A DNA stretch of 64,000 nt from Haloferax marinisediminis. GTDB taxonomy: Archaea > Halobacteriota > Halobacteria > Halobacteriales > Haloferacaceae. The translations under genes and the position numbers were made by a program. Of the stretch, positions 45,458 through 53,299 are shown one piece after another (the stretch's first letter is position 1; every line of letters starts with the position of its first letter). The stretch covers positions 682,001 through 746,000 of the forward strand of contig NZ_WKJP01000001.1 in the NCBI RefSeq assembly GCF_009674585.1, written 5' to 3'. Below the pieces are notes generated by a model. The model ran no database searches. It had not been told where the DNA came from and was given only the letters and a program-made list of their open reading frames with translations.

Positions 45458-47043
45458 CAGACGACGAACCCGCGGAGCGAATCCGCACCGATGGAGGCAC
45501 AGCAGAGGGGAAAGACGAAGTCGCCCTCGACCCGTGGGGCTCGTCGACCATCGCCGACTACCGGAAGTTGTTCGAGGAGTTCGGCATCGAGGAGTTCGAC
45601 GAAATCCTCGACGAGGTGCCGAACCCGCACTACCTGATGCGCCGCGGCGTCATCTTCGGCCACCGCGACTACCGTCCAGTCCTCGAAGCGATGCGTGACG
45701 GCGACGACTTCGCTGTCCTCTCGGGATTCATGCCGACGGGCGACCCGCACATCGGCCACAAACTCGTCTTCGACGAGATAATCTGGCATCAACAGCAGGG
45801 TGGCGACGCGTACGGCCTCATCGCCGACATGGAGGCACACTCTGCCCGCGGCATCTCGTGGGACGAAATCAACGAGCACAGTCGTGACTACCTGCTGTCG
45901 CTCATCGCACTCGGATTCGACACCGAGGAAGGTGAACTCTACCGACAGTCGGACAACGACCGTCTCCAGCGACTCGCGTTCGAACTTGGCGGGAAGGCCA
46001 ACTACTCCGAGTTCGAGGGCATCTACGGCTTCGACGGCGAGACGAACATCTCCCACATGCAGTCGGTCGTCACGCAGATGGCCGACATCCTCTACCCGCA
46101 GTTGGACGACCCGAAACCGACGGTCATCCCCGTCGGTCCCGACCAGGACCCCCACGTCCGCTTCGCTCGTGACCTCGCCACGCGGATGCGCTTCTTCAAG
46201 GTGACAGAAGCGTTCGCGTCGTTCGAACTCGACGACACCGAGCGCCCGGTCGTGGCCGCGGCCTACGACGCCCGCGAGGAGTACGCCGATGAACCCGACA
46301 TCCCGAGGTGTGGTGAAGCAGCCGAGTGGTTGGCCGACGCGAACCTCGACGCCGCCGGCATCCTCGTCGAGGAGTCCGTCCGCGACTCCGCGGTCGAGAA
46401 ACTCGAAAACGCCGGGATGGAACCGCTCCGTCCCCGAATCCGCTTCTTCGCCCGACAGGCGACAGACGAGGCGTTCGAGGCACTCATCGAGGAAATCGAC
46501 GGCGAGAAACGCCGATACGACCAGCACATCGACGCCTTCGACATCGACGTCGAGGAAGCAGAAGACCTCGCCCGCGAGGTCGAAGCCCACCACGGCGGCT
46601 ACGGGTTCATTCCGCCGTCGTCCATCTACCACCGCTTCATGACCGGTCTCACGGGCGGCAAGATGTCGTCGTCCATCCCTGCGAGTCACATCTCGCTCCT
46701 CGACGACCCCGAAGACGGCTACAACAAGGTCAAATCCGCCACGACTGGCGGCCGCGACACCGCCGAAGAACAGCGCCGTCTCGGTGGCGAGGCCGACAAG
46801 TGTCCCGTCTACGAACTCTATGCGTACCTCCTCACTGGCGACGACGACGAACTCGCCAAAGAGGTGTACGACGAGTGTATCGGCGGCGAGCGACTCTGCG
46901 GAGGGTGCAAAGAACAGGCCGCGACGATGATGCGCGAGTTCCTCGAAGACCACCAGGAAAAGCGCGAAGAAGCCGAAGCAGTCCTCGACTCGCTCGACAT
47001 CGATTTGGAGACTGAGCGACGGGGAGTGGCCGCCGAACACTAA
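45454..47043 (+). CDS. trpS: Tryptophanyl-tRNA synthetase
   Basis: Class I aminoacyl-tRNA synthetase of 529 residues, the archaeal type. The HIGH motif is in PTGDPHIGHKL and the KMSKS equivalent is TGGKMSSSIPASH. A Cys-rich patch near the C-terminus (CIGGERLCGGCKEQ) is present. It is translationally coupled to endA, notable because the haloarchaeal tRNA-Trp gene carries an EndA-spliced intron (established for Haloferax). Confidence 0.93.
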   Translation: MTDDEPAERIRTDGGTAEGKDEVALDPWGSSTIADYRKLFEEFGIEEFDEILDEVPNPHYLMRRGVIFGHRDYRPVLEAMRDGDDFAVLSGFMPTGDPHIGHKLVFDEIIWHQQQGGDAYGLIADMEAHSARGISWDEINEHSRDYLLSLIALGFDTEEGELYRQSDNDRLQRLAFELGGKANYSEFEGIYGFDGETNISHMQSVVTQMADILYPQLDDPKPTVIPVGPDQDPHVRFARDLATRMRFFKVTEAFASFELDDTERPVVAAAYDAREEYADEPDIPRCGEAAEWLADANLDAAGILVEESVRDSAVEKLENAGMEPLRPRIRFFARQATDEAFEALIEEIDGEKRRYDQHIDAFDIDVEEAEDLAREVEAHHGGYGFIPPSSIYHRFMTGLTGGKMSSSIPASHISLLDDPEDGYNKVKSATTGGRDTAEEQRRLGGEADKCPVYELYAYLLTGDDDELAKEVYDECIGGERLCGGCKEQAATMMREFLEDHQEKREEAEAVLDSLDIDLETERRGVAAEH

Positions 47044-49703: not shown

Positions 49704-49870
49704 TCGTCTTCGTCGCTCGTGTGTCGGCCGGTGATAAGAAAGTATCTCTGTTCCGACTGGTGGGGACGTTTCGAGTGGTGGTCGCGGCGAGATGGCGGCA
49801 TTCAGGCGAACGTGTCACGCTCTCTCACGATTCCGGAACCGTTTTGAAGGAACGTGGCTTCCTCGAAGAT
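49704..49870. other. Non-coding upstream part of the pheS leader region
   Basis: No gene is supported. A weak TATA-like TTTTGAAG near 49842-49849 is about 25 bases before the leader ORF. Together with the following mini-ORF and hairpins the gap before pheS is 384 bases, unusually long for this compact window. Confidence 0.45.
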
Positions 49871-49957
49871 ATGACAACCGAACCTGTCTGTGATGGTGTC
49901 AGCGTCACTCGTGAACCAACCACCGACGGGTTCGACTTTTTTGCGCTGACCGCCTGA
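49871..49957 (+). CDS. Possible 28-residue leader ORF with clustered Phe codons
   Basis: Reads MTTEPVCDGVSVTREPTTDG then FDFFALTA and TGA. Three of four consecutive codons near its end are Phe (TTC GAC TTT TTT). It is the last open frame before phenylalanyl-tRNA synthetase and is followed by serial hairpins. It could be a regulatory leader, a small protein or chance. Nothing outside position and composition supports translation. Confidence 0.35.
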   Translation: MTTEPVCDGVSVTREPTTDGFDFFALTA

Positions 49958-49961
49958 GGTC

Positions 49962-50036
49962 GGCGGACTCCGCCCCGGCGCGACCGCGCCCGGTGGACGA
50001 AACCGACCCCTTCGGTCAGACTCGCCGTTCGGCGAG
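49962..50036 (+). promoter_or_regulatory. Serial stem-loops between leader ORF and pheS
   Basis: Four short hairpins follow one another: GGCGG-act-CCGCC (49962-49974), GGCGC-gacc-GCGCC (49977-49990), ACCGA-5 nt-TCGGT (50002-50016) and CTCGCC-gttc-GGCGAG (50021-50036). pheS starts 52 bases later. The GC-rich stems would be stable in RNA; their function is unknown. Confidence 0.55.
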
Positions 50037-50087
50037 GCTTCGAAACTGCTAACCGACTACCAGACGGCTAACGCCACAACGAACCAG

Positions 50088-51587
50088 ATGCGACTTCCGG
50101 AATCACAGGTCGCGGTGTTGAACGCCGCGAGCGCTACAGACGAACGGACGATAGAACAGTTGGCGGAGGCGACAGACCTGAAACCAGAGACGGTGACGGG
50201 TGCTGCCTTCGACCTGCGCGACGACGGCCTCGTGTCGGTCACAGAGACCGTCGAGGAAGACGTCGAACTAACCGACGAAGGTGTCGAGTACGCCGAAGAC
50301 GGCCTCCCCGAGGTCCGACTCTACCGCGCCGCACTCGACGTTGGCGACGGCGACTCGGTCCCGATGGGACAGGTCATCGGCGCCTCCTCGCTCGGCGGCC
50401 CACAGGTCGACATCGCGCTGTCGAACTTCGCGCGAAAGGGCTACGGGCACATCGACTCGGGCGAACTCGCGCCCGACGCGGACGCCGACCCCGACGCAGA
50501 CGAAGAAGCGGCCGCACTCGCGGCCCTCGTCGCAGGCGACGACGTCGACGACGACGTCCTCGACCAACTCGAATCACGCAACCTCGTGGTTCGCCGCGAG
50601 CGAACCATTCGGACCATCACCCTCACCGACGAGGGCGTCACGGCCCTGATGGAGGGTGTCGAGGCGGCCGAGACGGTGGACCGTCTCACTCCCGAGATGC
50701 TCACCTCCGGCGAGTGGGAAGACGTCGAGTTCACCGAGTACAACGTCGAAGCCGACGCACCCGAGGTCCGCGGCGGCAAGAAACACATCCTTCGACAGAC
50801 CGCAGACCGCGTAAAAGACGTGCTCGTCGGCATGGGCTTCTCCGAGATGGAAGGCCCCCACGCCGACGCGGACTTCTGGATCAACGACTGCCTGTTCATG
50901 CCGCAGGACCACCCGGCGCGCACTCACTGGGACCGATTCGCCCTCGACGTGCCGCCGATGGAAGACATCCCAGAAGACCTCATCGACCGCGTCCGCGATG
51001 CGCACCTCAACGGTGTCGGCGAAGACGGTGACGGCTACCACTCGCCGTGGAGCGAGGACTTCGCCCGCGCAATCGCGCTTCGTGGGCACACCACGTCGCT
51101 GTCGATGCGCTACCTCTCGGGCCACGAAGTCGGGGAGTTAGAGCCGCCGCAGCGGTACTTCTCCGTCGAGAAGGTCTACCGGAACGACACGCTGGACCCG
51201 ACGCACCTGCTCGAATTCTACCAGATCGAAGGCTGGGTGATGGCCGAAGACCTCTCGGTGCGCGACCTGATGGGCACCTTCGAGGAGTTCTACTCACACT
51301 TCGGCATCACGGACATCCAGTTCAAACCGCACTACAACCCCTACACGGAGCCGTCGTTCGAACTGTTCGGCCGACACCCCGAGACGGGCGAACTCATCGA
51401 AATCGGCAACTCCGGGATGTTCCGCGAGGAGGTCCTTCGGCCACTCGGCGTCGAGTGCGACGTGATGGCGTGGGGGCTCGCACTGGAGCGTCTGTTGATG
51501 CTCATGTACGGCTTCGACGACATCCGCGACGTCCACGGAACGATGTGTGACCTCGACCTGCTCCGCGAAACGGAGGTGCTCCGATAA
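50088..51587 (+). CDS. pheS: Phenylalanyl-tRNA synthetase alpha subunit
   Basis: Class II aminoacyl-tRNA synthetase subunit of 499 residues, archaeal/eukaryotic type with winged-helix modules in the first 200 residues (LPESQVAVLNAASATDERTIEQLAEAT). The catalytic core includes motif 2 region VEKVYRNDTLDPTHLLEFYQIEG and motif 3 region GLALERLLMLMYGFDDIRD. It forms a heterotetramer with PheT. The stop codon shares one base with the pheT ATG (TAATG), so the two are coupled. Confidence 0.96.
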   Translation: MRLPESQVAVLNAASATDERTIEQLAEATDLKPETVTGAAFDLRDDGLVSVTETVEEDVELTDEGVEYAEDGLPEVRLYRAALDVGDGDSVPMGQVIGASSLGGPQVDIALSNFARKGYGHIDSGELAPDADADPDADEEAAALAALVAGDDVDDDVLDQLESRNLVVRRERTIRTITLTDEGVTALMEGVEAAETVDRLTPEMLTSGEWEDVEFTEYNVEADAPEVRGGKKHILRQTADRVKDVLVGMGFSEMEGPHADADFWINDCLFMPQDHPARTHWDRFALDVPPMEDIPEDLIDRVRDAHLNGVGEDGDGYHSPWSEDFARAIALRGHTTSLSMRYLSGHEVGELEPPQRYFSVEKVYRNDTLDPTHLLEFYQIEGWVMAEDLSVRDLMGTFEEFYSHFGITDIQFKPHYNPYTEPSFELFGRHPETGELIEIGNSGMFREEVLRPLGVECDVMAWGLALERLLMLMYGFDDIRDVHGTMCDLDLLRETEVLR

Positions 51588-53299
51588 TGCCCGTAGTCGA
51601 CGTTCAACCAGACGAACTGCGCCGCCTGACCGGCCACGAAGAGAAGTCCGACGAAGAGTTCAAAGAAGACCTGTTCGCGCTCGGCCTCGAGTTCGAGGGC
51701 GTGACCGACGACGGAGCGTTCCAACTGGAGTTCGGCCCTGACCGTCTCGACCGTCTCTCGGTCGAAGGTGTCGCCCGGTCGCTTCGCTACCAGTACGGCG
51801 ATGCTCGTGGCGTCTCCGTCCCGAAGACGAACGACCCCGACTGGACCATCGTCGTCGACGAGTCCGTTCCGGACGAGCGCCCGTACGTCACGGGGGCAGT
51901 CGTCCGCGGTGTCGACTTGGACGACGCCGCGCTGGACTCGCTCATCCAGTTGCAAGAGAAACTCCACGCGACGATGGGGCGCAAGCGCGCCAAAGGAGCC
52001 ATCGGCATCCACGACCTGACGATGCTGAAAGGCGACGTGCTCTCGGAGCAATCGACGGGGAACTCCATCACGTACAAGGGAATCGCCCCCGACGGCGACA
52101 CCTTCGTCGCCCTCGACTCCAACGAGGAACTTACTCCCGCGGAAGTGCTCGAACAGCACGCGACCGGCCGAAAGTACGCCGACCTCGTCTCCGAGTACGA
52201 GCGCTACCCGGCTATCTACGACGAAATCGGGCTGTTCTCGTTCCCGCCGGTCATCAACGGCCGCCGGACCGAGGTGTCGACCGACTCGCGTGACCTGTTC
52301 GTCGAACTCACCGGCACCGACCAGTGGACCATCGACCGGATGTGCAACATCATCTGCTACGCGCTGGCCGCCCGTGGGGCGACTATCGAGCAGGTCGAAG
52401 TCCAGTACGACGAGGGAACCGTCGTCAAGCCCGACTTCGAGGTCGACACGAAACACGTCAGCCACGACCGCATCGAGTCGATTCTCGGCATCGAGCTGGA
52501 GATGGACGAAGTCATCAACCTCTTCGAGCGCTCCGGCCTCGGTGTCGAAGCGGAACTCGGTGAGGAGACGATTTACGAAGTCTCCGTTCCGCCGTACCGC
52601 GTGGACGTCCTGCACCCTCTCGACCTCGTCGACGACGTGGGTCGCGCCTACGGATTCAACGAACTCGAACCGCGCTACCCCGACGTGGGAACGGTCGGCC
52701 AGCGACACGAGCGCTCTCGGGTCGCAGACGCCGCCCGGAACAGTCTCGTCGGCCTCGGGTTCGAGGACATGCTCAACTTCCACATGATTTCGGAGGAAGA
52801 GAACTACGAGCGGATGGGCATCGAACCTGGAACGGACGTTCTGGGTGGCGGCGAACCCGCCTCCATCACCGAACCGTACAGCGAGGACTACACCATGCTC
52901 CGGACGTGGGTACTCCCGTCGCTGTCGATGGTGCTGGAGAACAACACCCACCGCGCGTACCCGCAGGACCTCGCCGAAATCGGCCACGTGGCCCATCGCG
53001 ACGACGACGAGAACACTCGCGTCGCCGAAGCACGACACGTCGCTGCCGTCCTCGCACGCCACGACGTGAGCTACGAGGACGCGAAGGCCCGTCTCGCGAC
53101 GCTCTGCCGCGACTTCGACGTCGAACTGGAGACGCCGGCGACCGAGCACCCGTCGTTCATCCCCGGTCGAACTGCCGCCGTCGTCATCGACGGTGAAGAA
53201 GTCGGTATCGTCGGTGAACTCCACCCGAAGGTCATCGTCGAACACGACCTCGAACTGCCGGTCGCGGCGTTCGAATTCGACCTGTCTGCGCTACAGTAG
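51587..53299 (+). CDS. pheT: Phenylalanyl-tRNA synthetase beta subunit
   Basis: A 570-residue archaeal-type beta subunit, shorter than bacterial PheT. N-terminal editing B3/B4 region around GLFSFPPVINGRRTEV, followed by B5 domain and the class II-like domain (GRAYGFNELEPRYPDVGTVG and the ENNTHRAYPQDLAEIG stretch). It ends at the second-motif-like HPSFIPGRTAAVVIDGEEVG. Partner of PheS; also provides Tyr-tRNA(Phe) proofreading in this family. Confidence 0.96.
   Translation: MPVVDVQPDELRRLTGHEEKSDEEFKEDLFALGLEFEGVTDDGAFQLEFGPDRLDRLSVEGVARSLRYQYGDARGVSVPKTNDPDWTIVVDESVPDERPYVTGAVVRGVDLDDAALDSLIQLQEKLHATMGRKRAKGAIGIHDLTMLKGDVLSEQSTGNSITYKGIAPDGDTFVALDSNEELTPAEVLEQHATGRKYADLVSEYERYPAIYDEIGLFSFPPVINGRRTEVSTDSRDLFVELTGTDQWTIDRMCNIICYALAARGATIEQVEVQYDEGTVVKPDFEVDTKHVSHDRIESILGIELEMDEVINLFERSGLGVEAELGEETIYEVSVPPYRVDVLHPLDLVDDVGRAYGFNELEPRYPDVGTVGQRHERSRVADAARNSLVGLGFEDMLNFHMISEEENYERMGIEPGTDVLGGGEPASITEPYSEDYTMLRTWVLPSLSMVLENNTHRAYPQDLAEIGHVAHRDDDENTRVAEARHVAAVLARHDVSYEDAKARLATLCRDFDVELETPATEHPSFIPGRTAAVVIDGEEVGIVGELHPKVIVEHDLELPVAAFEFDLSALQ

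Follow-up and report, generated by a model that had tools for sequence, protein, structure and literature searches.

A conserved Phe-rich leader ORF upstream of pheST in haloarchaea, a candidate ribosome-mediated attenuator

The window analyzed here, a stretch of 64,000 nucleotides of a Haloferax chromosome, carries pheS and pheT and, upstream of them, a short Phe-containing open reading frame (ORF). Its pheS shares 98% identity with those of its closest relatives (of the named records, Haloferax profundi), and pheS identity across the genus Haloferax is 95-98%. The original prediction had described a 28-codon ORF with three Phe residues in four codons, followed by stems and then pheS, and the sequence and the ORF list confirmed each of these elements at its position. 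The features of the locus are as follows.

49834-49847, + strand: core promoter of the leader, with BRE AAC at 49837-49839 and TATA-like TTTT at 49842-49845, recognized by conservation across leaders.
49871-49957, + strand: leader ORF of 28 codons, MTTEPVCDGVSVTREPTTDGFDFFALTA, predicted to be leaderless, with ATG at 49871 and TGA at 49955-49957 (sequence and ORF list; a matching 26-aa uORF in H. volcanii dRNA-seq).
49879-49888, + strand: 5' arm of hairpin P0, codons 3-6 (MFE of the ORF RNA; compensatory changes among leaders).
49925-49934, + strand: 3' arm of P0, holding the first Phe codon, TTC at 49931-49933 (MFE; compensatory changes).
49937-49942, + strand: Phe codons TTT TTT, a U6 tract immediately 3' of P0 (sequence; T-run selection; T5C precedent).
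49958-50008, + strand: P1-P2 element (located in leaders without using pairing; pairing above shuffles and slid controls).
49958-49963 with 50003-50008, + strand: helix P1.
49964-49968 (CGGAC) and 49998-50002 (CGAAA), + strand: 5x5 internal loop of P1-P2, with hairpin P2 inside.
50041-50057, + strand: Box C, CGAAACTGCTAACCGAC, upstream of pheS and leader-independent, a candidate weak internal promoter or operator.
50088-51587, + strand: pheS, Phe-tRNA synthetase alpha subunit, the putative controlled gene (ORF and class-wide protein matches).
51587-53299, + strand: pheT, beta subunit, identified by gene order and protein sequence, its start overlapping the pheS stop by one base.

The leader stop codon is separated from the pheS start by 130 nt. 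Phe stands at three of four codons (F-D-F-F) in the Phe-rich end GFDFFALTA-stop, and the transcript start is predicted at the leader ATG or a few nt away. The whole leader folds better than shuffled versions of itself (z -2.84), with GC-rich stems 3' of the ORF. Compared with the GFGFFFLTA of other Haloferax, the GFDFFALTA of this strain (49931-49946) has one Phe fewer and a longer T-run (T6); judged by sequence, the leader of the window is a little weakened.

The conservation of the leader was investigated in pheS upstream regions gathered from family, class, and GTDB sets (230 in total, 197 distinct), where an ORF that begins with ATG and has a Phe cluster near its stop was scored as a leader. 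The data showed a Phe-rich leader ORF upstream of pheS in 161 of the 197 distinct haloarchaeal regions. It is typically 24-28 codons long with the pattern ...GFGFFFxx-stop, and 77 of these leaders contain GFGFFF exactly. The stop codon follows the last Phe by 0-4 codons in 158 of the 161, and pheS starts 35-248 nt 3' of the leader (median 135). The original prediction had allowed that three Phe codons could be chance, and by themselves they are indeed weak evidence; however, a chance ORF is refuted by this conservation and by the covariation and frame phase described below, and is hardly tenable. A promoter-plus-sORF scan of 44 other amino-acid or synthetase loci gave no cognate-rich leader, which also speaks against chance. 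The 20 pheS upstream regions taken from further classes of the phylum contained no comparable leader. Because the leader is present in 161/197 regions inside the class and in 0/20 outside it, it seems to have originated at the base of the haloarchaeal lineage.

A leader could not be recognized in about one sixth of the regions, so the device would be dispensable; several lineages that lack it, such as Halohasta, Halonotius, and part of Natronomonas, seem to have lost it on separate occasions. The 36 regions scored as leader-less include one read on the wrong strand (L030) and three altered copies in which the leader is still present, with a GTG start (L021), a start that is apparently ACG (L024), or a frameshift (L082); these changes are possibly decay or assembly errors. 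Two related leaders (L099 and L193) carry GFGFRPPKPAAFFAHL, in which an insert of several codons splits the Phe cluster.

When the leaders were aligned on the ATG, A was found at -34 and -33 in 92% and 91% and C at -32 in 75%, giving AAC at -34 to -32, with a further C at -37. T was found in 85-99% at -29 to -26, in a T-run that spans -30 to -26. This BRE/TATA promoter is conserved at a fixed distance, the leader ATG lying about 28 nt downstream, and because the geometry is fixed, transcription is expected to begin on the ATG or beside it and to give a leaderless transcript. The dRNA-seq data of H. volcanii list a 26-aa uORF (pI 5.9), to which no function was assigned, in the 150-250 nt 5'UTR of pheS (HVO_2948), with no additional TSS at the gene itself (Babski et al. 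2016, PMC4983044); Phe codons and structure are unmentioned there. A transcript start downstream of 49960, named in the original prediction as evidence against a leader, was therefore not seen in H. volcanii, where the start is upstream of the ORF (PMC4983044). Matched by length, pI, and position, this uORF is very probably the same element as the Haloferax leader. Several 26-aa Haloferax leaders have a computed pI of 5.94, and the listed mass of the H. volcanii uORF (2772) differs from those computed for Haloferax variants (2792-2850).

We analyzed the pairing within the ORF. P0 arises from pairing of nucleotides 8-16, in the conserved start M-x-[SPT]-E-[PS], with the codons that surround the first Phe, and at least 8 of the 9 pairs are present in 150 of the 161 leaders, in comparison with about 20 after codon shuffling within leaders. 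Codon 4 and its partner change together (GAA/TTC in 124 leaders, GGA/TCC in 8, GAC/GTC in 2, and GAG/CTC in 1). Of the 14 leaders with GGA (Gly) as codon 4, 8 have TCC (Ser) as its partner; of the 3 with GAC (Asp), 2 have GTC (Val) there; and GAG is sometimes matched by CTC (Leu). At nt 16 the paired bases are C-G in 64 leaders and G-C in 28 (97 paired, shuffle maximum 67), and a one-base shift of register reduces P0 pairing from 97% to 45-69%. The 87-nt ORF of the window folds into P0 (-29.1 kcal/mol, z -2.43). RNAalifold, run on six clades separately, recovered P0 for five of them, with little covariation score within clades; the covariation lies between clades. In whole-transcript ensembles P0 is only moderately stable (median pair probability 0.46), and a consensus terminator scan left it unflagged, the P0 loop exceeding the length that the scan allows. 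Covariation shows that P0, a hairpin predicted from sequence, is formed by codons 3-6 and the codons around the first Phe.

The conserved peptide start is explained by this hairpin, because its codons pair in P0. A functional microprotein encoded by the leader ORF would account for the strict conservation of the frame, but we consider it very improbable, since the middle of the ORF is unconserved and RNA pairing explains the N-terminus and the first Phe, including the paired compensatory amino-acid swaps from E/F to G/S, D/V, and E/L. Because the first Phe codon lies within a P0 arm, this Phe has in part a structural role, and sensing would fall to the two or three Phe codons that come next. 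The P0 loops are 34, 37, 40, 43, 46, 49, 52, or about 100 nt long, and 149 of 150 are identical modulo 3, a count partly conditioned on the requirement for an in-frame Phe cluster; among the regions scored as leader-less, there is one out-of-frame case only, the frameshifted L082. The three codons that follow P0 have T at positions 1-2 in 83-95% and C or T, mostly C, at position 3; therefore Phe is kept, not merely U. The strict conservation of the frame suggests that the leader ORF is translated.

The base composition of the Phe cluster was also determined. A T-run of at least 5 is present in the cluster of 88 of the 161 leaders, in comparison with 14 expected from simulation with pheS codon usage; the leader counts take in related genomes, and such a run is found in 74 of 137 distinct cluster sequences. 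A T-run of at least 4 is present in 101 of the 161 leaders, the window having U6, and TTTTTC is present in 70 leaders, where 13 were expected. Val before Phe is encoded by GTT in 13 of 15 cases, although GTT makes up 5% of Val codons. In 60 of the 161 leaders the Phe cluster has no T-run longer than 3, and therefore the U-tract is helpful, not required. A GC-rich hairpin followed by a U-tract is thus present, in the form of P0 and the U-rich Phe codons, but within an ORF, and the 4-5 or more U of archaeal U-tract terminators are found, though not universally. In H. volcanii the T5C motif terminates 95% of transcripts in vivo (PMC7237163), and in Methanococcus the termination factor aCPSF1 binds terminator U-tracts (PMC8716108). 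The TTTTTC of 70 leaders and the U6 of the window resemble these signals; however, T5C and U-tract terminators lie mostly in intergenic 3' regions, whereas the leader tract lies inside an ORF that is probably translated.

The same hairpin and U-tract geometry would suit a general translation sensor, in which P0 with the U-tract would act as a pause or termination signal that is lifted by any ribosome which initiates on the leader and covers the 5' arm of P0; charging with Phe would go unsensed, and the Phe residues would be a by-product of U-richness. That arm (nt 8-16) would lie beneath a ribosome initiating at a leaderless ATG, and the T-runs are selected beyond codon usage. We nevertheless judge such a sensor to be rather unlikely, because a pure U-tract would not hold T at positions 1-2 while allowing C at position 3, because the 60 leaders that lost T-runs of at least 4 retain Phe codons, and because the controlled gene is that of PheRS.

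Next to the stop codon, a second structure, P1-P2, was found in 136 leaders. Helix P1, of 6 bp, leads through a symmetric, purine-rich internal loop (YGGAN/NGAAA) to hairpin P2, and the YGGA starts 4-17 nt past the leader stop, usually 5-12 nt. Pairs 4, 5, and 6 of P1 formed more often than in any shuffle (85 vs a maximum of 69, 109 vs 88, and 115 vs 105). Slid registers of P1 pair at 32-43%, the true register pairs at 72%, and P2 pairs at 91%. From usual ribosome footprints, a ribosome at the stop codon should cover P1, and one stalled on Phe should not. The original prediction had placed four short hairpins after the ORF. GC-rich stems are present there, but they are not conserved units: P1-P2, which is conserved together with P0, encloses the first two of them, and the last two were seen in Haloferax only. 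The comparison among relatives that it had proposed as a check showed that the ORF, the Phe codons, and stems are kept, with two helices that covary.

The position of P1 also bears on a classical attenuator of the bacterial type, in which P1-P2 would be the antiterminator, an alternative hairpin downstream the terminator, and the stopping position of the ribosome would decide between them. The 5' strand of P1 lies just past the stop codon and could be masked by a ribosome that terminates there, and in Haloferax the 3' strand of P1 can pair with the next stem. However, over the whole set of leaders the complementarity of this 3' strand to downstream sequence was no better than in shuffles (mean longest stem 5.27 vs 5.30), a T-run longer than 3 was found between the leader stop and pheS in none of the 161 leaders, and neither mutually exclusive antiterminator and terminator hairpins 3' of the sensor codons nor a conserved bacterial-type terminator switch downstream of the leader was found. 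We therefore regard the classical attenuator as improbable. Translational control, by which the leader would set ribosome loading or reinitiation at pheS, is a common mode of action of uORFs elsewhere, and termination-reinitiation is known for overlapping genes of H. volcanii (PMC7531240). It is a quite improbable explanation here, because pheS starts well downstream of the leader, at the distances given above, and because the pheS start region is more open than the sequence elsewhere (0.59 vs 0.39 unpaired) and is not covered by conserved pairing. The lack of a downstream T-run, the lack of alternative pairing, and the open pheS start together argue against a bacterial two-hairpin switch and against start-codon masking, and sequestration of the pheS start codon was rejected.

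Two other ideas were rejected. T-box riboswitches control aminoacyl-tRNA synthetase genes by amino-acid supply and bind tRNA directly. The leader also stands at an aminoacyl-tRNA synthetase gene and contains a resemblance to GGUGGA..CC; however, Rfam, searched with the window region and with eight relatives, gave no match to the T-box or any other family, and the ACCA end of tRNA-Phe does not match UGGA. The idea that the P1 3' strand is an alternative pairing partner of the first Phe codon was rejected by inspection, because GAAA is unchanged in several leaders where that codon is TCC.

Box C (consensus CGGAACYGCTAACTGACC) lies 35-69 nt, mostly 36-52 nt, before pheS and is kept even in leader-less genomes, being present in at least 22 of the 36 regions not scored as leaders. 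In 59 genomes every match of the strict motif is at pheS, and a role as the operator of a regulon was rejected for this reason. Box C resembles a BRE with a weak TATA; no start site is listed there in H. volcanii.

The anatomy observed here would, we infer, serve as a ribosome-mediated, Phe-responsive attenuator of pheST, ancestral to the haloarchaea, in which the sensor codons and the U-tract of the terminator are fused; we give this reading a probability of roughly 60%. For stalling, termination at the U-tract, the role of aCPSF1, and the direction of the response, we infer the following course. Transcription would begin at the leader ATG, as the promoter geometry suggests, and the leaderless ORF would be translated, as the conserved frame suggests. 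P0 and the two or three U-rich codons behind it, normally Phe, would form a terminator-like signal of hairpin plus U-tract, so that sensor codons and terminator tract would be identical nucleotides. When Phe-tRNA is scarce, the ribosome would stall on the Phe codons and occupy the 3' arm of P0 and the U-tract, leaving P1-P2 free to fold, and the polymerase would proceed into pheST. With ample Phe-tRNA, the ribosome would depart at the stop codon, P0 would refold, and the exposed U-tract would be open to aCPSF1 (FttA), so that fewer transcripts would reach pheST. The main logical difficulty of the attenuator model lies in the order of events: the polymerase has made the U-tract before a ribosome arrives there, and termination must therefore act after the tract has emerged, which cleavage by aCPSF1 would fit. 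The role of P1-P2 is putative. If the attenuator model is true, ribosome position controls archaeal gene expression via the nascent RNA, and the leader is a natural test case of transcription-translation coupling with the termination factor aCPSF1/FttA. The model also proposes a role for an H. volcanii uORF that was previously detected and left unexplained.

Enterobacteria control pheST (pheM leader) and pheA (pheL leader) by ribosome-mediated attenuators. Like these, the haloarchaeal leader lies upstream of pheST and has a small ORF in which Phe codons cluster toward the end, with RNA stems behind it; it looks like an archaeal counterpart of bacterial amino-acid attenuators. We know of no attenuator of the one-hairpin design from bacteria. 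Attenuation of pheST is also named in PMC1262725. The analogy with bacterial pheST drawn in the original prediction thus holds for the Phe-rich leader ORF but goes no further: the haloarchaeal ORF is predicted to be leaderless, its main hairpin lies inside the ORF, its sensor codons would be the U-tract, it has no conserved downstream antiterminator/terminator pair, and the RNA polymerase and termination factor are different. Full-text searches of open-access papers turned up no amino-acid attenuator described for Archaea and, as the sole trace of the pheS leader, the H. volcanii uORF table; with this coverage, priority for the discovery of the leader is not certain. New here are the predicted hairpin P0 in the ORF with its compensatory changes, the U-rich Phe codons behind it, and the covarying P1-P2.

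Leaders of a similar kind were examined at other loci. In Haloferax, no such leader was found before pheA (prephenate dehydratase), chorismate-binding (trpE-type) genes, or PF00587 class II synthetases. The window has a TrpRS gene of family PF00579 (G000:C1:727511-728947) at about 45511-46947, about 3 kb upstream of pheS, and most of the Haloferax loci inspected show no small leader before this gene. Trp-rich leaders stand before the second TrpRS (relatives of HVO_A0127) in many genera, for example MVSTSRATCWRWRSTWEVDSIAV, MTTAPWRWWSPASGADSPAVVVAAA, and MTSALEWSWRWQTPSRADSVVVAGDVA, and the principle is therefore not unique to pheS. We tentatively propose, as a possibility somewhat short of an even chance, that the pheS leader is the first archaeal amino-acid leader-peptide attenuator, a one-hairpin design in which UUU/UUC would be both the ribosome sensor and the termination U-tract and a stalled ribosome would hide the terminator, and that with the parallel Trp leader it belongs to a haloarchaeal set. 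The Trp leaders, at 25 loci, are conserved and apparently leaderless, with CWRW, PWRWW, or EWQWRW, and a uORF is likewise listed for HVO_A0127 in H. volcanii. In the Haloferax Trp leaders, codons 16-19, around or after the Trp cluster, are a possible pairing partner of codons 3-5.
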